A DNA stretch of 64,000 bases from positions 26,553 to 90,552 of the forward strand of contig JWIH01000005.1 in NCBI GenBank assembly GCA_000814665.1. The letters are read 5' to 3'. The notes under the pieces are model-generated. The model saw only the letters and a program-made list of their open reading frames with translations. It was not told the DNA's origin and made no database searches. The stretch is from Pseudoalteromonas flavipulchra NCIMB 2033 = ATCC BAA-314. GTDB lineage: Bacteria; Pseudomonadota; Gammaproteobacteria; Enterobacterales; Alteromonadaceae. Position numbers and translations under genes: made by a program. Shown in pieces: positions 2,363 through 64,000 of the stretch; the first letter of the stretch is position 1; each line of letters opens with the position of its first letter.

Positions 2363-3562
2363 ATGAATAATCCTTACTCCGAAATTTTTAAGACAAAAGG
2401 AACCAAGCATTTCAGCTGTGCTGGTTTTATTGCTCGTATGCCGCTCTCTATGATGGCGATTGGGTTAATCACTATGCTTTCGCAACTCTATGACTCATAT
2501 TGGATTGCAGGTTCCATTGCTGCGCTATTTACCTTCACCATGGCATTTGCTGCGCCGCAGTTGTCGCGACTGATTGATAGGGTAGGGCAACGCAAGGTTG
2601 TGATCCCTGCGGTTTTGTTTAGTGCAATATCTGCGCTGGCATTGTTGCTCCTAAGCCACTTGCAAGCGCCACTTTGGAGTCTCTATGTTTTAGCCATGTG
2701 TGCGGGCATTATGCCAAGTGTTCCGGCTTTAGTCCGGGCCAGATGGAGCGCGATACAATCAGATCAAGGTTTACTTAATACGGCATATTCTTTTGAGTCG
2801 GTACTGGATGAAATTACTTTTGTGATAGGGTCTCCTCTTGCGATTGCATTGAGCAGCTTGCTCTTTCCTCAAGCCGGTCCGTTGCTAGCGGTTATTTTGT
2901 TTGTGATAGGCAGTATCTGGTTAGTGTCGCAGAAGGACACGGAGCCAAAAATAGAACAAAGTGAAAATCAGACCCGAACTTCCGCACTGGCTAACTCCAC
3001 GGTTAAGTTGCTTAGTTTGGTGTTATTGGCGCTCGGTGTAATAGTTGGTGCTATCGATGTATTAAGTATCGCTTTTGCTCAGCAGCAAGGGATGCCAATT
3101 GCGGCAAGCTTAGTATTGTCGATGTACGCGCTTGGTTCTTGTATCGCTGGGTTTGGATTTGGGGCCGTTAAGTGGCGTGTGTCTATGCCAGTACTGCTTG
3201 TACGTTTTGCGATATTCACATTGATCGCGAGCGTACTATTACTCAGTGTTAACCACGTTTATGGTTTGGCAGTAGTGATGTTTATTTCGGGACTTGCGTT
3301 TGCTCCAACCATGATCATTGCCATGGGGCTTGTTGAGCAAAGCGTACCAAAACGCTTACTCACTGAAGCCTTAACTTGGCTAATTACCGGGCTCGGTGTG
3401 GGGATTGCAGGTGGGACTGCGTTGACCGGATGGGTCGTTGAACACTTTACCGTGGATCTTGGATTTGGGGTTGCAGTGGTCGCTGCTGCTACCGTGGTGT
3501 TACTCGCCAGGTATCAAAAACACGATGATAAAAGGCGAGCAACTCAAGTTGTCAGTGATTAG
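2363..3562 (+). CDS. MFS efflux transporter
   Basis: A 399-residue polytopic membrane protein with about 12 hydrophobic segments and the MFS loop 2-3 signature in degenerate form (RLIDRVGQRKVV). The cytoplasmic loop between the two halves is charged (about residues 197-215). ATG 2363 was chosen because AAGGAGA lies 6 bases upstream; a longer frame would begin inside the operator. It is divergent from a TetR regulator, the usual arrangement for drug or metabolite exporters. The substrate is unknown, and export rather than import is inferred from the context. Confidence 0.85.
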   Translation: MNNPYSEIFKTKGTKHFSCAGFIARMPLSMMAIGLITMLSQLYDSYWIAGSIAALFTFTMAFAAPQLSRLIDRVGQRKVVIPAVLFSAISALALLLLSHLQAPLWSLYVLAMCAGIMPSVPALVRARWSAIQSDQGLLNTAYSFESVLDEITFVIGSPLAIALSSLLFPQAGPLLAVILFVIGSIWLVSQKDTEPKIEQSENQTRTSALANSTVKLLSLVLLALGVIVGAIDVLSIAFAQQQGMPIAASLVLSMYALGSCIAGFGFGAVKWRVSMPVLLVRFAIFTLIASVLLLSVNHVYGLAVVMFISGLAFAPTMIIAMGLVEQSVPKRLLTEALTWLITGLGVGIAGGTALTGWVVEHFTVDLGFGVAVVAAATVVLLARYQKHDDKRRATQVVSD

Positions 3563-53589: not shown

Positions 53590-54642
53590 TTACAGTGAGT
53601 TTAGTATTAACTGTGAAAAACTTTGTGAGTTAGACTCGCTTACATAACGGTAAGTTTTTTTCCAAAACCAGCTACCCGTTGTTTCTTCATAGGTGTTGTA
53701 GCTAATCGTTTTATAACCCGCGTTAAACTGAGTACGAGCCGCTGTTACTTTGCCTTGGTATCCAGCATCTGGCAGGTTACCGTGGCTATATTCCGCGCTC
53801 ATTAGTAATGGGTAGTGGTATGGCATAAAGCTAGTTACTGCATCATCTTGAGAGGCTAGCTGACCGTTGATAGCAACGCTTGTACTACAACTACCAAAGT
53901 CACCTTTTGTCGATGCACCACAAGAAGAGTGTGTTGATACAACACCATCATCATTACCTGGTAAGAAACCTGAAGTGAGGCCGTAGTAGTCGCTTGCATC
54001 AGCGACGAAACGTAGGCGAGGTGCGTTGTCACTTGGGTACTGAGCAACTTGTCGCGCGTTATTTACTTTTAAATCCCACATGATACCAAACTCTTCAGGC
54101 ATGCTACCAAGCCAAGCCTCAACAGCTTGGCGAGTTAGTTCACCAACTACACCACCAGAAGTCGCAGCGTTGATAGCAGTGTCTGCGAGTTCGCTTCCGC
54201 CGCCCGCACCTGCAAGGTCAAAAGTAGCAACGATATTAAGTGGTTGAAGGCCCGCATTTTCAAGCCAAGTTGCTTGATTATCTAAGATATAGCGCGCAAC
54301 CAAATCACCCGTTGAGTGGGTAACAAAGACGCAGCCAGGATTACAAGTGCCATTTTCTGCAAATGCTTTTAGCTTTGGCCAAATATAATCTGTTGCGATT
54401 TTGCCTTGCAAGCGTTCATAAGAAGGCCAATCAATACGTTCATCAGCGTGGTTTATCCAAAAAGATGACCAATATTCTTCACCCTCAAGCTCGACATTGG
54501 TACTGTTAGGGCGGTTAAGTTGGTCCGCTTGAAAGCCATGAATTAGAATTGTTTTATATTCAGCGGCCTGCGCGGGAGTTGCAAGTGCAGCGCCTGTTAA
54601 TAACGCAGAAAGTGCAGCAGTGTATACAAAGTTAGTTTTCAT
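53590..54642 (-). CDS. Secreted lipase-like alpha/beta hydrolase
   Basis: A 350-residue exported hydrolase. The signal peptide covers about 1-27. The oxyanion strand ILIHGFQAD is followed by the nucleophile elbow FVTHSTGD (Ser of HSTG, a variant of GxSxG). Cysteine pairs (CNPGC and CGASTKGDFGSC) suggest disulfides. The Asp and His of the triad are likely in VADASDYYG-GNDDGVVS and near SAEYSHGN. It fits class-I-like bacterial lipases. AAAGGAC precedes the start. The substrate is unknown; it lies just past the NRPS-halogenase genes and could be unrelated to them. Confidence 0.8.
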   Translation of the reverse strand: MKTNFVYTAALSALLTGAALATPAQAAEYKTILIHGFQADQLNRPNSTNVELEGEEYWSSFWINHADERIDWPSYERLQGKIATDYIWPKLKAFAENGTCNPGCVFVTHSTGDLVARYILDNQATWLENAGLQPLNIVATFDLAGAGGGSELADTAINAATSGGVVGELTRQAVEAWLGSMPEEFGIMWDLKVNNARQVAQYPSDNAPRLRFVADASDYYGLTSGFLPGNDDGVVSTHSSCGASTKGDFGSCSTSVAINGQLASQDDAVTSFMPYHYPLLMSAEYSHGNLPDAGYQGKVTAARTQFNAGYKTISYNTYEETTGSWFWKKTYRYVSESNSQSFSQLILNSL

Positions 54643-56201: not shown

Positions 56202-59200
56202 TTAAAGAGTGTTCATAATTTCTGACATTTTTATTAAGTCTTCCGGTGTTTTTACCCAACTGTTGTGCGACCCTTTCATGGTGAACACTTGAACCTGACT
56301 GGGTTGCATTGCTTCTTCGATAAGATTTTGATTCTTATCAAGGTATCGGTTGATTATATGACTGGAAAGTTGCAACTCTAGGCTATCCGACTGAGTCACT
56401 TCAACCGCACAACCAGCACTAAATAGCGTCACCTTTGCGGTGCTAGAAAATGCTGGATCATTTTGGTAGTGATAATTAATTCTATCGGGCTCAAGATGAC
56501 TGAACTCTGGGTGTAGAGCAAAAACTTCATCATGCATCGCGGCATAGTCAAAACAAGGGTCGACGAACACCAAGTGTTCGACTGTGTCCCCCTCATTTTG
56601 CAGCAGTTTGGCAACCTCAAGTGCCAGCGTTGCGCCAAAACTCCAACCAAAAATCCGATAAGGACCACTAGGCTTTAGCTTTTTAAGATGAATAGCATAC
56701 TGCAACGCCAATGTTTGGAACTGATAATAGTCATAGGCGAGCGAGCCCTTTGGTTTTTCCTGTGCGGCATAGATGTTATTGAAGCAATAACAAGGCGCGG
56801 AAATCTTGGGAGCAATGGATTGCAAGTAACTCTCAGCACCACCGCCACCCGGAGGGAAGAAAAACCATTCAATAGGAGCATCGGCTTCATTCACCAATAC
56901 GCCGATCTCAATATCACTTAGGGTTTTTATGCCTTGGGGATTTGCGGCTGTAATCGAATGTGAAACGACGGCTCGAAGGGCAGCATCGAACTGCTCTATG
57001 AATGCGGTGGTTTGCGTCTCATCTAACTGACTTGCAATGCTCACTTGCAGTTTCATTTGACGCACTTCGGCATTAACGATGAGTGCCATTTCATCCTGAT
57101 TATCCTTGCTGCTGGCATCGCCTGAGTGTGCATTTAGCATTCGTATACCCTGATCTTGTGCATCATTGTTGCTATCAAGTTGTCCCAAATAATTAAAGCT
57201 AACTTTAGGTAATTGATTGAAGGAAAATTCCCCACGTCTGACCAACTCGCTGAAGCCTAGCCCTTTATCTGGAATGGCACGAAGCGTTTCTTTGCTTTGA
57301 ATAATCAGCGTCGATAAATCCGTGTCATTTTTCAGGGCAACCGGAAACATACTAGTAAACCAGCCTAGTGTTCTTGAGGTATCAATATGGTCACTCAGAT
57401 GTTCTCGGCCGTGGCCTTCTAACGTGAGATGGCAATAGTTTGTAGCAAAGGTATTGCACCAAGCCCGAGTAAACGCACTCATTAAGAGATCATTGATTTC
57501 TGTGTTAAACCCAGCAGGAGCAAGGCGTAGCAATTGCTCAGTAAGCTGAGTATCAAATTGATGCGTAAGACGCTGTTGTGATTTACCGTAAGGTACGTTT
57601 TGTTGTGTGCTTAGCACATTTTGCCAATACGGTATTTGTTGTTCAAAAGGATGCAGGGCCACAACGTCTGACCATTGGCGATAACTGCTGGTTTTGTCGC
57701 TTAAGGTGTCGCCTTGCAGCAAGCGACTTAAGTCTTCGACCAAAATACGCCACGAAACACCATCAATAACAAGGTGATGAACGATAAGTACAAGCCTAGT
57801 TAGCGGTGTATCATCGCTGAGTAAAACCGGTTGCCACAAAGCACCTGAACCGAGTTCAAAACAGGCGTGTATTTTAGTCAACGCCAGAGCGGTTTGCTGC
57901 TCATCAAGCCCCGAAGTGTCCAAATGGATAAGCTTTGGTGTTGGACACGCAGCAACGCTTTGATATTGGGATTGCCAAGTCTCGGTTTTGCTAAACTGAG
58001 CGCGCAACATGTCATGTTGTTGATGCAGCTGCGCAAGTGCACGCTCCAAAGTATCCAGCGCGGTATTGTGCGGAAGGGCGAGCATGACCGACTGATTAAA
58101 ATGCGCTTTATGACGGTAATGGGAGTTGAGGAACCATTGCTGGATAGGTAATAACTTGATTTCTCCGCTGAGCTCACCTTGTTCAGCCTCGATTTCTACC
58201 TGTTCATTATTTGCCAAAAATGCACAAAGCGCTTCTAGGGTTGGATAAGTAAATATGTCTTTGGTCGACAGCGAATAGCTAGCACGTTTGAGAGCCGACA
58301 TGAGCTGAATGCTCATAATTGAGTCACCACCAATATGGAAGAAGTTATCTTCCAAGCCAATCTGCTTAATCCCTAATACAGCACACCAGATTTTAGCGAT
58401 GTGCTTTTGCTGTTCTGTGTTTGGAGCATGGTGAGTCTCAGTTTGGCTAAAATCGGGCTGCGGCAGTGCTCGGGCATCAATCTTGCCATTAACCGTAACC
58501 GGTAGGGCGTCTAATGTGAGGTAGGCACTTGGCAGCATATAACTCGGTAGCATGTGAGAGAGTGTTTGCTTGAGCTTTGCCTCATCTAGTGACTCAGTAT
58601 TTGCCATGACCAAGTAGGCCACGATACGTTTAACCCCATCTTGTTCATTCACGTTTACAAACGCAGTATGAATTTGCGCTTGTTGCTTAATTGCAGTTTC
58701 AATCTCGCCAAGTTCGATGCGGTAACCACGAATTTTCACCTGAAAATCATTACGACCAACATACTCTAATAAGCCATCTTCACGCCATTTAACCAAATCT
58801 CCCGTTTTATACATTTTGTTCCAACCGCTTGCGAGGTATCTATCCGATGCGAACGGATTAACTAAGAATGCTTGTTCGGTTAAATCTGAACGGTGTAAAT
58901 AGCGTCTTGCCATACCCGCGCCGCCAATATAAAGTTCTCCTGCCACGCCCGGTGGAAGTATTTTGCCAGCAGGTGACAACACGTAAGCAGATTTATTGGC
59001 AATAGCGCGGCCAATAGGTGCTCCGTGATTTACAGAGTTGAGTAAGCAGCAAGTCGCATAAACGGTGGTCTCTGTTGGGCCATAGGCGTGGTAAAGCATC
59101 AGCTCTGGCGCTTGATGCTTTACTCGCTCAACCATAGCTAAGTCGACCGCCTCTCCACCAAAATTAATCTGTTTAAGTCCGGCGTGTAAGAAGAAGTCTT

Positions 59201-62200
59201 CGCTAGCTAAACGATTAAATAGCGCAGTGGTTACAAAGCACGTATCAATCTGCTGTGCTTGGCAGTACTCAATCAGTCGTTCTGGATCAAGTTGAGTCTG
59301 TTTATCTATCAGGTGTAGCGCTGCGCCATTACTGAGTGTGACAAAGCAGTCAAAAATAAACGCGTCGAAGCTAATACTCGATAAGCTAAGTACCTTGTTC
59401 AGTTGTGTGGGGTCGATAAAATGGTCGTCCGTGGCATAGTTTAATAGTGCCTCATGGTTGATTTCTACGCCTTTAGGATTACCTGTGGTGCCAGAGGTAT
59501 AGATAATATAAGCCAAATCAGACGGGCTCACCGATACCGCTTGGTCTAAGCTTGTTTCCTCCATTGGTGCATCGCTAAGTACACGTGACAGTGAGGCAAG
59601 TGTTGTACTCTCAACTCTATCCATTAATCCCGATTGGGTGACCACGATTTTCGCACCACAGTCCTTGGCAATATATTCAATCCTTGAGTCAGGAAATTCC
59701 GGTGATACAGGAACATAACCACCGCCAGCTTTAAGAATAGCGAGGATCGCAACGATAGAATCCAACTGTTTTTCATGCAGCAATAAGACTGGGAAATCAC
59801 CTTGATACTCGTTGCCGTAAATCTCAGCCTTAATCACCAATAATTGTTGGGCAAGCAGGCAAGCCTGGCGGTTGAGTGCTTGATAGCTTAGTGCTTCATC
59901 TTGCCAGACCACAGCGGTTGCATCCGAGAATACGGCGACTTTTTCACTAAATAAGTCGTTGAAGTTCTCGAAGCCACATGACTGGCGCTCGGTTTCATTC
60001 CACTCGTTGAGAATACGGGCCCTTTCCACTGTATTGGCAATTTCAATGTGTTGATGCGGTAAGTGAGTATTGTCAGCGACTTGCTTGAGGATAAGCAGCA
60101 GTTGAGATTGCAGTTGTACGGCACGTGCTGGCGAAAGCAAACTGGCGTCGTACATCAGCTCAAGTTGCAGCTCTCCTTGCTCCTTTGCTATCAATGCAAG
60201 TGGGTATTCAACTTGCTCTGGTGCTGCGTCAAACTGCCAGCGAGCTTGTTGTGCCTCTGCTTGTTCATTTTCAAGGCTTGGGTAGTTTTCGAAAACGACT
60301 AGGCTTTGGAATAGCCGATTACCGCCTTGTTGCAGTGACGCAAGTGACACATTCGCATGGCTATTTAAGTCCAAAATGGCAGTTTGGATCTTCTCGAGTT
60401 GTTGCGCGATGGTAGCATCTGTAGGCCAATCAAGATAAAGCGGTAGCGTATTGATGTAAGCTCCAACACTTTGCTCTATGCCGTCAATTGGTAAGTCACG
60501 ACCTGCGATAGTTGTACCTACTAAAGTAAATTCGTCGCGAGTATAGATTTGGATAAGCTTATGCCAGGCAAATTGTACCGCAGCATTGAGCGTGACAGAA
60601 TGTTGCTGACACGCTTGCTGCAACTTACTTAACGCCTCGTTTGGTAGAGCAAAATGCAGCGTCTGCGGGTCATGATTATGACGGAGCGTTTCTAAATCTG
60701 TTGAGTGACTAAACAGGGTGTTAAGATCGTTTGCTTGTGATAAATCAGCGACATGATATTGCCAAAATGCTTTGGTGGCGGCCTGATTATCTCTTAGGTA
60801 AGCATGGGCATCTAAATAGGCGTTATCCATCTGTAAAACAGGTTCTTGACCTTGTAGTAATTGCGTATAGTTCTGGTGAACGGTCTGCATAACTAACGGG
60901 CCACTCCAGCCATCACAAATGCTGTGATGCTCTGTTTTTATTAGGTGATAATGCGCTTCACCGCGTTTTACCAAATGCAGTGTAAATAACCCCGGTCTTG
61001 CAAAATTAAATGGCTGATTTAGCACTTGGTTTGCAAGCTTTTCTATGTGTGCTTGTTGTTCTGCTTTTGAGTATTGACTGATATCAATCACGCTAAAGTT
61101 ATCTTCATCAACACAGGTGTGATCCACGATAAGTTGCAGCATGGTTTCTTCAACATCGAAAGCACAGCGCAGCGCTGGATATTGCAGTGAGGTTAGTTGC
61201 CACGCACGACAGTATAGCGCAGTGTCAATTTTATCGAAATACTGCATCTGTGACTGCACCCGATAGGCGGTATCTTCTGGACTATTAAGCTGGTGGAAAA
61301 TAAAACCTTGCTGCAAGTTTGTTGCGGGATAAACCGCAGCTAGGTCGTAACGTGTGCGCAGTGCATCTAAGTGGGCGAAGCTGACGCCCGTCAGATTATA
61401 GTCGCTTGGCGTTTGTTTGGCGCCAAGCGCTTTGGTATGTAATGCCGTGTCCAGCACCGCTTGTAGGCTGGCAGTGAACTGACTTTGGAATAGGGCAAAT
61501 TCGGTTTCAGACAATGCTGTGGTGCAATTTAAGACAAGCTGACCATGAATAATAGCCGCGTTGATATCAAGAACGTAATGCCCATTATTTTCGCTCGCGA
61601 CTGGTTGACCTGTAATGGCTTCGGTCAAGTAAAAGTCGCCATGAGGTTGCTGCGTTTTAGTGCCACCGATTTGGCCTAAATAGTTGAATGCAACGGTTGG
61701 TAAAGTCCCCGTCACTTGTTTGGAAAAATAGAATTGACCAAAACCAACGCCATTGTCTGGCAATTTACGCAGCTGCTCTTTGGCATTGACGATAGCGCTT
61801 TCGAGACTAGAACCCGCATGGAGTGCTAGTGGATATAATGACGTAAACCAGCCTACGGTGCGTGAATGATCTATATCTTCGGCGATGTGTTCACGACCAT
61901 GTCCTTCAAGCGCAATAACCTGATCATTACTACCAGTGATATGAGCGAGAGTTAGTGAAAGCGCAGCGACGACAAGGTCTCGAGGCTCTGTGTGGTAGCC
62001 TTGATTAGCGTCAAACAGCAGCGTTTGTGTAAATGCAGAGTCAAGTCTAATCACTTGGTTTGTCGGTGTGTTCTTCGCTGTTAAGTGTGTTTGACAAGTA
62101 TCAAGTACTTCTTGCCAGTAATCGATTTGTTCGGCTTGAACATGTGCATATTGGGCTAAGGTCTCAACCCATTGACGATAGCTTGAGGTTTTTTGCGCTA

Positions 62201-63998
62201 ATTTTTTGCCTTGATAAAGACTATTTAAATCCTCAATTAGGATCCGCCAAGAGACAAAGTCAATGATCAGGTGGTGGAAGGCCAGTACCAATACATCTTG
62301 GCTTTGGCGTTTGACACGAATTGGCTGCCATAAAGGGCCTGAATTTAACGCAAACTGTGACTGCAAGCGGGTTAATTGCTTGGCAAGCTCGTCGTCACTG
62401 AGTGTGTCTGCATCAAGTTTAACTAGAGGCGCCATGGTATTATTTTGTTGGTACTGCTGGGTAATATGCGCCGTCTTTTGATTGAAAACAAGGCGTAGCA
62501 CATCATGTTGCTCAGCAAGCTCGGACAATAGCTCAACTAATCTCTCATCACTGATTGCGCTTGGCATTACAGTGGCAAAAGTTTGGGCAAAGTGTGCGGG
62601 ATTAGCAAACTGATTTGCGAAGAACCACCGCTGGATAGGCAGCAGATCAAACTCCCCTTCAAGCTGACCTTGTTCGGCTTTTATCGTAACCTTCTTGTCG
62701 CCATTAGCATGGATAAGTTTTGCCAGCCGCGCGGGAGTTGGGGCGGCAAATATCTCTTTAACTTGTACCGTTAACCCAGCTTCTCTTAAGCGTGAAACCA
62801 GCTGAATACTGACAATTGAGTCGCCGCCGATTTGGAAGAAATTATCCTCAATACCCACTTGCTCAAGGCCAAGTACCTGCTGCCAAATCTCACAAAGCTG
62901 GGTCTCTAAAGCATTGCGTGGTGCCACATAAAGGTTGTCAGCTTGAAGTTCTGGCGCGGGGAGTGCCTTGCGGTCAAGCTTACCATTACCCGTAAGTGGA
63001 ATATGCTCGATTAAGGTAAAGTGGCTGGGCACCATGTATTCAGGTAAAGCAGCACTTAGGGCGAGCTTTAACTCGGTAATTTCAAGGTCAGGCTCTGCAA
63101 CAAGGTAAGCGGCCAGCGCTTTGCCTTGCGGTGCAGGTACATCAATCACTACTGCGTTTTGTACGCCTTGCTGGTCGACAATAGCTGCAGCAATCTCTCC
63201 TAATTCGACACGATAACCACGAATTTTCACCTGCTCATCGTTACGACCGAGATATACCAAGTCGCCGTTGTCTAGGAAACGGGCAAGGTCACCGGTTTTG
63301 TAAAGCTTGCTATGGGCGGGGTCGTGACTAAATGGATTATCAATAAAGCGCTCAGCATTGAGTTCAGGGCGGTTTAAGTAACCACGGGCAACCCCAAGGC
63401 CTGAAATATATAACTCACCCGGCGCACCAATGGGCATGGGCTGCAGCGACTCAGATAATACATGAAGATTAACGTTAGGGTAGGCTTTACCTATGCCTTG
63501 ATGAAGGCGTGGATAGGCCTGTGCTAGCATCGCACCGACTGTGGCTTCCGTTGGGCCATATTCATCGAAAATAGCGTTTACATGGTCGCTTAATGCGGCA
63601 ATGGCCTGCTCAGTCAGTGCCTCACCACCGAGCATTAGGGCATCAACTTGTGCATCGCTGCCAGGCAATAGCGCCATGGCAAGACTCGGTGTGGTTTTCA
63701 CAAAGCCAACGTTCGCGGTATTTAGATGAGCTCTAAAGGCGGCGGCATCAAGAATATCGCCTTCATAAACACACACCGTTTGTCCAGCAAGGAGCGGGCA
63801 TAAGGTGGTGGTCACCGACAAGTCAAAACAGTAATTAGAAGAAAAGTCGATATTACGATACTTGTCACCTAACTGGCGGGTTAAGGCGTGAAGATAGTAA
63901 AGCACATTGTGCTGCGTGAGCATTACGCCTTTTGGTTGTCCGGTTGTCCCTGAGGTGTAGATGATATAAGCCAAGTTAGCCAACGCGGTTGGACGCAC
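56202..63998 (-). CDS. NRPS, last two modules (A-T-E-C-A-T-E-TE), partial
   Basis: A 2,598-residue C-terminal part of a nonribosomal peptide synthetase; the gene starts beyond the window. Domains: adenylation 1 (1-365, begins at YTSGTTG), carrier 1 (GGDS, Ser about 391), epimerisation 1 (HH about 574), condensation (HHSICDG about 1023), adenylation 2 (about 1340-1845), carrier 2 (about 1888), epimerisation 2 (HHLVIDG about 2074) and thioesterase (about 2370-2598, GWSFGA about 2451, Asp about 2478, His about 2576). My hand-read codes are DLTKMGEVG(K), expected for Asn, and DAFFNGAVY(K), aliphatic. Epimerisation 1 has HHLIIDF, not DG. The product end would be D-Asn then a D-aliphatic residue. 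Alterochromide's Asn-Asn-(Leu/Ile) end agrees, so this may be an AltM-type protein. Confidence 0.9.
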   Translation of the reverse strand: MRPTALANLAYIIYTSGTTGQPKGVMLTQHNVLYYLHALTRQLGDKYRNIDFSSNYCFDLSVTTTLCPLLAGQTVCVYEGDILDAAAFRAHLNTANVGFVKTTPSLAMALLPGSDAQVDALMLGGEALTEQAIAALSDHVNAIFDEYGPTEATVGAMLAQAYPRLHQGIGKAYPNVNLHVLSESLQPMPIGAPGELYISGLGVARGYLNRPELNAERFIDNPFSHDPAHSKLYKTGDLARFLDNGDLVYLGRNDEQVKIRGYRVELGEIAAAIVDQQGVQNAVVIDVPAPQGKALAAYLVAEPDLEITELKLALSAALPEYMVPSHFTLIEHIPLTGNGKLDRKALPAPELQADNLYVAPRNALETQLCEIWQQVLGLEQVGIEDNFFQIGGDSIVSIQLVSRLREAGLTVQVKEIFAAPTPARLAKLIHANGDKKVTIKAEQGQLEGEFDLLPIQRWFFANQFANPAHFAQTFATVMPSAISDERLVELLSELAEQHDVLRLVFNQKTAHITQQYQQNNTMAPLVKLDADTLSDDELAKQLTRLQSQFALNSGPLWQPIRVKRQSQDVLVLAFHHLIIDFVSWRILIEDLNSLYQGKKLAQKTSSYRQWVETLAQYAHVQAEQIDYWQEVLDTCQTHLTAKNTPTNQVIRLDSAFTQTLLFDANQGYHTEPRDLVVAALSLTLAHITGSNDQVIALEGHGREHIAEDIDHSRTVGWFTSLYPLALHAGSSLESAIVNAKEQLRKLPDNGVGFGQFYFSKQVTGTLPTVAFNYLGQIGGTKTQQPHGDFYLTEAITGQPVASENNGHYVLDINAAIIHGQLVLNCTTALSETEFALFQSQFTASLQAVLDTALHTKALGAKQTPSDYNLTGVSFAHLDALRTRYDLAAVYPATNLQQGFIFHQLNSPEDTAYRVQSQMQYFDKIDTALYCRAWQLTSLQYPALRCAFDVEETMLQLIVDHTCVDEDNFSVIDISQYSKAEQQAHIEKLANQVLNQPFNFARPGLFTLHLVKRGEAHYHLIKTEHHSICDGWSGPLVMQTVHQNYTQLLQGQEPVLQMDNAYLDAHAYLRDNQAATKAFWQYHVADLSQANDLNTLFSHSTDLETLRHNHDPQTLHFALPNEALSKLQQACQQHSVTLNAAVQFAWHKLIQIYTRDEFTLVGTTIAGRDLPIDGIEQSVGAYINTLPLYLDWPTDATIAQQLEKIQTAILDLNSHANVSLASLQQGGNRLFQSLVVFENYPSLENEQAEAQQARWQFDAAPEQVEYPLALIAKEQGELQLELMYDASLLSPARAVQLQSQLLLILKQVADNTHLPHQHIEIANTVERARILNEWNETERQSCGFENFNDLFSEKVAVFSDATAVVWQDEALSYQALNRQACLLAQQLLVIKAEIYGNEYQGDFPVLLLHEKQLDSIVAILAILKAGGGYVPVSPEFPDSRIEYIAKDCGAKIVVTQSGLMDRVESTTLASLSRVLSDAPMEETSLDQAVSVSPSDLAYIIYTSGTTGNPKGVEINHEALLNYATDDHFIDPTQLNKVLSLSSISFDAFIFDCFVTLSNGAALHLIDKQTQLDPERLIEYCQAQQIDTCFVTTALFNRLASEDFFLHAGLKQINFGGEAVDLAMVERVKHQAPELMLYHAYGPTETTVYATCCLLNSVNHGAPIGRAIANKSAYVLSPAGKILPPGVAGELYIGGAGMARRYLHRSDLTEQAFLVNPFASDRYLASGWNKMYKTGDLVKWREDGLLEYVGRNDFQVKIRGYRIELGEIETAIKQQAQIHTAFVNVNEQDGVKRIVAYLVMANTESLDEAKLKQTLSHMLPSYMLPSAYLTLDALPVTVNGKIDARALPQPDFSQTETHHAPNTEQQKHIAKIWCAVLGIKQIGLEDNFFHIGGDSIMSIQLMSALKRASYSLSTKDIFTYPTLEALCAFLANNEQVEIEAEQGELSGEIKLLPIQQWFLNSHYRHKAHFNQSVMLALPHNTALDTLERALAQLHQQHDMLRAQFSKTETWQSQYQSVAACPTPKLIHLDTSGLDEQQTALALTKIHACFELGSGALWQPVLLSDDTPLTRLVLIVHHLVIDGVSWRILVEDLSRLLQGDTLSDKTSSYRQWSDVVALHPFEQQIPYWQNVLSTQQNVPYGKSQQRLTHQFDTQLTEQLLRLAPAGFNTEINDLLMSAFTRAWCNTFATNYCHLTLEGHGREHLSDHIDTSRTLGWFTSMFPVALKNDTDLSTLIIQSKETLRAIPDKGLGFSELVRRGEFSFNQLPKVSFNYLGQLDSNNDAQDQGIRMLNAHSGDASSKDNQDEMALIVNAEVRQMKLQVSIASQLDETQTTAFIEQFDAALRAVVSHSITAANPQGIKTLSDIEIGVLVNEADAPIEWFFFPPGGGGAESYLQSIAPKISAPCYCFNNIYAAQEKPKGSLAYDYYQFQTLALQYAIHLKKLKPSGPYRIFGWSFGATLALEVAKLLQNEGDTVEHLVFVDPCFDYAAMHDEVFALHPEFSHLEPDRINYHYQNDPAFSSTAKVTLFSAGCAVEVTQSDSLELQLSSHIINRYLDKNQNLIEEAMQPSQVQVFTMKGSHNSWVKTPEDLIKMSEIMNTL

Positions 63999-64000
63999 TA

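Follow-up and report, generated by a model that had tools for sequence, protein, structure and literature searches.

The stretch of Pseudoalteromonas flavipulchra DNA analysed here (the ‘window’: 64,000 nucleotides, G000:C21:26553-90552) closes with the last modules of a non-ribosomal peptide synthetase (NRPS) next to a halogenase, its final base being also the final base of contig C21. The initial annotation, made from the letters alone, had suggested an alterochromide-type cluster, an interpretation supported by the alt gene set, gene order and adenylation codes that we find in the same genome. We are now almost certain that what the window cuts at its end is altM, and that this gene belongs to an alterochromide (bromoalterochromide) cluster of 14 genes, altA–altN, ~34 kb in length and split over the three contigs C15, C7 and C21.

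The open reading frame at 56202–63998 (minus strand) is present as first described and ends in a thioesterase, its Pfam matches comprising three Condensation, two AMP-binding, two PP-binding and one Thioesterase stretches. Two of the three Condensation-family stretches carry the motifs of epimerisation (E) domains (HHxxxDxVSWRIL and NYLGQ), and we therefore assign the order A(Asn)-T-E-C-A-T-E-TE to the part of altM found in the window (Table 1); both E domains were absent from the earlier hand reading. The two adenylation (A) codes given there, DLTKMGEVG (an Asn module) and DAFFNGAVY, were recovered unchanged by motif anchors, apart from the fourth letter (position 278), which we took by visual inspection of the printed surroundings. 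The gene does not truly begin at the GTG ‘start’ at 63998: because the window stops at the end of C21, the frame has no real beginning here, and the gene goes on in another contig.

Table 1. Features of the altM–altN end of the window (window coordinates)
Feature	Position	Strand	Basis or remark
altN, flavin-dependent halogenase, 412 aa	54835..56073	-	Pfam PF04820 (Trp_halogenase)/PF01494 (FAD-binding), motifs, conserved neighbourhood
altM C-terminal part, A(Asn, truncated)-T-E-C-A-T-E-TE	56202..64000	-	cut by the end of C21; 5' part on contig C7
Thioesterase domain (predicted macrolactonisation and release)	56202..56864	-	PF00975 aa 2379-2480, GWSFG
Epimerisation domain, last module (predicts D-Leu/D-Ile)	56955..58166	-	PF00668 at C21:83507-84718, HHLVIDGVSWRIL, NYLGQ
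T domain, last module	58209..58403	-	limits approximate, around GGDSI at residue 1890
A domain, last module, code DAFFNGAVY, aliphatic	58464..59951	-	Pfam, motif anchors
Condensation domain, last module	60012..61334	-	PF00668 at C21:86564-87886, HHSICDGWS
Epimerisation domain, second Asn module (predicts D-Asn)	61443..62657	-	PF00668 at C21:87995-89209, HHLIIDFVSWRIL, NYLGQ
T (carrier) domain, second Asn module	62712..62900	-	Pfam PP-binding aa 367-429
Homogenised Asn A-domain tract, portion within window	62814..64000	-	reaches the T-domain motif GGDSI
A domain, code DLTKMGEVG (Asn), from A3 motif on	62964..63998	-	motif anchors

A search of our own genome for aromatic lyases returned two matches, one of them on C15 (38181 b), and it is here, on the minus strand, that altA to altK and the start of altL are located. 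In order, we see a Lyase_aromatic protein, a PP-binding ACP, an AMP-binding ligase, a ketoacyl synthase, an ABC ATPase and an ABC permease, followed by a FabA-like dehydratase, an SDR reductase, a protein with no Pfam family, a thioesterase, a one-module NRPS and a longer NRPS. The one-module NRPS (altK) has the arrangement C-A-T-E and the code DFWNIGMVH, which we take to be that for Thr; the longer (altL) reads C-A-T-E-C-A, with DAFWLGATF, presumably for Val, then DLTKMGEVG, presumably for Asn, before running off the contig end. C7 (4235 b) begins inside an Asn A domain, passes through a T domain to a stop (the end of altL) and then opens with C-A(Asn), the start of altM. Together with the window this gives three NRPS genes, with altL and altM in pieces on C15, C7 and C21, whose five modules fit Thr-Val-Asn-Asn-Leu/Ile and close with a terminal thioesterase, the halogenase gene altN lying beside altM. 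The ammonia lyase and aryl-polyene genes that had been proposed as a check are thus in place (lyase, ACP, ligase, ketosynthase, dehydratase, ketoreductase, ABC transporter and thioesterase, all on C15), as are the Thr, Val and Asn codes upstream (C15 and C7); of the outcomes named beforehand as contrary—unrelated upstream modules, no aryl-polyene genes or differing codes—none occurred. When compared with NCBIfam, AltA scores above no curated cut-off, the best match (387 of 1000 bits) being to tyrosine ammonia-lyase. From altA, altB, altC and altD through altE/F, altG and altH to altI and altJ, the order on C15 is that given in the table of PMC7333567, where altI, here the gene without a Pfam family, is entered as ‘hypothetical protein’; the parts sum, by arithmetic from the contig pieces, to the size of about 34 kb stated in the passages of PMC5577590 on the alt cluster.

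Of 108 genomes of the genus, 17 (our own included) match the start of AltM at E 1e-100 or better; six of the others do so along the whole query, at 58–98%, and a further ten at 38–44%. A scan of genome contigs confirmed four loci, that of P. peptidolytica at 90% and the other three at 29–35%. All 13 protein queries (altA–K, altM start and altN) are matched in each of the six relatives, with partial alignments in G045 (locus L071; altK 1350 of 1527, altC 470 of 525 and altD 768 of 800 residues), whose AltK open frame is shorter and has no C-domain motif; the A-T-E motifs of AltK are found in all seven genomes and C in six. AltL forms a single open frame, C-A-T-E-C-A-T, in 6/6 relatives, as does AltM, C-A-T-E-C-A-T-E-TE, some E domains in G039 and G009 being recognised by NYLGQ and HHxxxD alone, having been missed by a narrower E pattern. 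The code of both Asn modules, that of the last module and the Thr code are identical in 7/7 genomes, the Val code varying slightly (LGATF, IGGTF, IGATF). Compared with P. peptidolytica DSM 14001 (L043/G039), we find the same genes, AltL/AltM domain order and Thr/Asn/Asn/last codes, at 78.4–95.5% protein identity over the 13 queries, the Val code being DAFWIGGTF there as against DAFWLGATF in our genome. AltM frame lengths in the relatives step by five residues (3270, 3275, 3280, 3285), perhaps as a result of a short repeated peptide (ALGVK/AFGVK) seen just before A3 of the altL/altM Asn A domains (e.g. L028, about 3190–3240), where the two copies differ in our own genome.

The cluster is split over contigs because the A domains of its two Asn modules, at the end of altL and the start of altM, are nearly identical. 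We aligned both modules from the six genomes in which the genes are intact, our own being left out of the trees as its copies are fragmented. Between the two modules of one genome the A tract is 93.7–99.9% identical, whilst the flanks are not alike, at 39.5–48.1% for the upstream C regions and 51.7–56.6% for the downstream T regions; by pairwise identity, each of the 12 tract copies is closest to its partner in the same genome, whereas the C and T flanks are in every case (12/12) closest to the same-position copy of another genome. In G009, where other cluster genes fall to 39–86% protein identity, the tract shares 61.6–62.9% identity with its counterparts in the other five species, yet its own two copies are 99.5% identical, with no difference at any of 175 four-fold sites between the A3 motif and GGDS. 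The trees agree in part: FastTree recovers all six within-genome pairs and IQ-TREE five (four strongly supported), leaving unpaired the copies of G044, which are only 93.7% alike; the copies of G044 and G045 are intermingled in a tree of the 5' half, and those of G044 are again unpaired in one of the 3' half. An AU test against all AltL copies forming one clade gave p 5.67e-52, a value that leans on the long G009 branch. The edges of the tract fall in 6/6 genomes within approximately five residues of W(H/N)(N/D)N or WNNTE in the C-A linker and at the GGDSI of the T domain, and may mark merely where homology ends.

Could such near-identity be an artefact of assembly, or the outcome of plain purifying selection? 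In our own genome the exact core shared by the contig ends (below) is indistinguishable from collapsed reads, and the two copies in G044 show four-fold differences at 31 of 192 sites, much like the AltL orthologues of G044 and G075 (30 of 190). The near-identity recurs, however, in four two-contig genomes, in G039 and in G009, and four-fold differences between a genome's own copies (0–31 of 175–200) contrast with those between orthologues (30–73 of 185–194 for the five closer species; 75–86 of 122–127 to G009), such that we regard either explanation as very improbable. These comparisons of the copies indicate instead a concerted evolution of the paired Asn A domains, which are kept near-identical, we suggest, by repeated copying within the genome, for which gene conversion would be the probable mode. 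We favour, with moderate confidence, a picture in which one large unit, from the last part of the C-A linker through the complete A domain to the pantetheine serine of the T domain, has been copied repeatedly between the last AltL and first AltM module across a split as deep as that of G009, with fixed edges and not as the A-core alone, serving to keep the Asn-Asn pair matched and not to diversify it.

At the contig ends themselves we observe exact overlaps of 941 b (end of C15 with the window end of C21), 974 b (end of C7 with the same) and 816 b (start of C7 with end of C15); window positions 63060–64000 are identical to the end of C15, 63027–64000 to the end of C7 and 62986–63875 to the start of C7, and, were both Asn copies identical over their full length, the exact core would amount to 1037 b. 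Taking the 941-b overlap at face value, C15 might be joined directly to C21, giving one Asn module and a tetrapeptide synthetase, with C7 belonging elsewhere. Beyond the core, however, the copies diverge, C15 from the end of C7 on its left side (97.5% identity over 1434 b in all) and the start of C7 from the window on its right (98.4–98.5% over about 1060 b); there are therefore two Asn A domains. Moreover, C7 holds the intervening end of altL and start of altM, precisely what lies between the two A domains in 6/6 intact relatives, and we reject the direct join as scarcely credible. The order C15, C7, C21 is the one that we propose from the exact end overlaps together with the gene order of the six relatives.

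Breakage of this kind recurs within the genus: of the ten genomes with altN, altL and altM are single frames in six and not in four. In all four the altM piece stops at a contig end inside the homogenised tract (residues 518–1077, G072 numbering), at residue 1061 in G083, 707 in G071, 908 in G046 and 684 in our own genome, G000; the altL pieces of the first three (open frames of 2103, 2034 and 2023 aa, respectively) presumably end in the tract likewise. The middle piece, carrying the altM start, forms a contig of its own in G000, and in G083, G071 and G046 we found no match to it above 34% identity at E 1e-60 or better. Elsewhere in the 5.45 Mb G000 genome, 64 Condensation-family matches (some of those on C1 and C24 looking like copies) point to many further NRPS modules. 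C1 (29487 b; L077, L078) is largely 99.9–100% identical, in permuted order, to stretches of the C24 NRPS locus (L079, L080), with ~8 kb between them less alike, which points either to a near-identical duplicate of the NRPS or to an assembly repeat; and a 667-b exact overlap between C6:1-667 (L033, NRPS) and the end of C11 (L037:11770-12436) suggests that another cluster has probably been split by assembly.

As to what the cluster makes, the pathway outlined in the passages of PMC5577590 has AltA supplying coumarate, AltB/D/H/G the polyene, and a collinear NRPS whose product is cyclised by the AltM thioesterase. Applied here, AltA would convert Tyr to coumarate and AltC, AltB, AltD, AltG and AltH would assemble the aryl-polyene acyl chain; AltK would then add D-allo-Thr, AltL D-Val (or D-Ile) followed by L-Asn, and AltM D-Asn followed by D-Leu/Ile, with the AltM thioesterase closing the lactone on Thr and AltN brominating the phenol ring. 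The antiSMASH prediction for module 2 given in the text of PMC13097078 is Val, and a Leu/Ile specificity for the last A domain is likely by comparison with known producers. E domains are found in modules 1, 2, 4 and 5 with none in module 3, a pattern that predicts D-Thr, D-Val, L-Asn, D-Asn and D-Leu/Ile. At this level of domain prediction there is agreement with the Marfey analysis described in passages of PMC13097078, according to which BAC E/E' contain D-allo-Thr, D-Leu, D-Ile and Asn of both L and D configuration, and which places L-Asn1/D-Asn2 only tentatively owing to gaps at the Asn modules; since module 3 is without, and module 4 with, an E domain in six intact genomes, our data support that placement. 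That the product is instead a different brominated or chlorinated lipopeptide ending in Asn and an aliphatic residue, unrelated to the alterochromides, has next to nothing to recommend it beyond the window by itself holding just two modules and a halogenase of a broad family, and is ruled out, short of chemistry, by the altA–altN set in the genome with its matching codes and order, and by the closeness of the altM start (90–91% identity) and altN (92%) to their counterparts in the published producer P. peptidolytica, for which (strain DSM 14001) passages of PMC7730127 record bromoalterochromide A together with traces of alterochromide A and dibromoalterochromide A.

The halogenase after the NRPS, first noted for its WxWxIP motif, is borne out by matches to PF04820/PF01494: AltN has both the GxGxxG FAD motif (GAGPAG) and the WxWxIP-type motif (WTWQVP at residue 99, WVWLIP at residue 215) of a flavin-dependent halogenase, with GxGxxG and two WxWx[IV]P motifs present in all seven AltN proteins compared (own genome and relatives). 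An altN orthologue adjoins altM in 6/6 relatives, at 76–99.8% identity. The solved chain nearest to AltN is 3nix, labelled only flavoprotein/dehydrogenase, the nearest chains named as halogenases being 5buk, 3i3l (CmlS) and 7fco (ChlB4); in NCBIfam nothing lies above the curated cut-off, the best match (168 of 900 bits) being CmlS. At E 1e-110 or better, AltN is found in 1/394 genomes drawn evenly from the order (at least four being of the window's genus), namely our own genome only, and in 10/108 genomes of the genus. A role for AltN in bromination would be consistent with the loss of brominated alterochromides on deletion of altN from the cloned cluster, as described in passages of PMC5577590. 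After altN there is a lipase-like open reading frame (our own reading; no Pfam family) at 53590–54642 on the minus strand, a match to which also follows altN in 6/6 relatives (in G009, 77% over the part within the fetched stretch).

The alt cluster of P. piscicida JCM 20779 is cited as MIBiG BGC0000314 in PMC7551054 and as BGC0000299 in PMC7730127, and the altA–altL order is also tabulated for Pseudoalteromonas sp. JC28 in PMC7333567. Compared through these published descriptions and the sequences of six other genomes, our cluster has the same 14 genes in the same order, the altK-L-M NRPS genes, altN last and a thioesterase at the AltM end, with module codes that fit Thr-Val-Asn-Asn-Leu/Ile and no gene-content difference found. 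It is therefore a further member of a well-described family, and only the homogenised Asn unit goes beyond. Copying of A-domain DNA between modules of one genome is described likewise in passages of the survey by Baunach (PMC8097286) and of Booth et al. (PMC9205934), the latter presenting gene conversion/concerted evolution as a homogenising force in NRPS genes. In the passages of the former, however, exchange is mostly of the A-core, with the native C-A linker, A-sub and A-sub-T interface kept, whereas the alt unit is larger (taking in the greater part of the linker, the A domain in full, and T to GGDSI) and its specificity is preserved. In the literature on A-domain gene conversion, recombination and exchange units, judged by title and abstract opening and by passages of PMC5577590, PMC9205934 and PMC8097286, none of the titles found deals with concerted evolution of the alt genes.

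The alt cluster is thus an ordinary one for yellow marine Pseudoalteromonas, and the useful part of the present analysis is the reason for its recurrent breakage. The homogenised unit is a naturally repeated swap and, as such, may interest NRPS engineers: if true, nature would repeatedly swap a unit with one edge in the C-A linker, an edge that those engineers also use.
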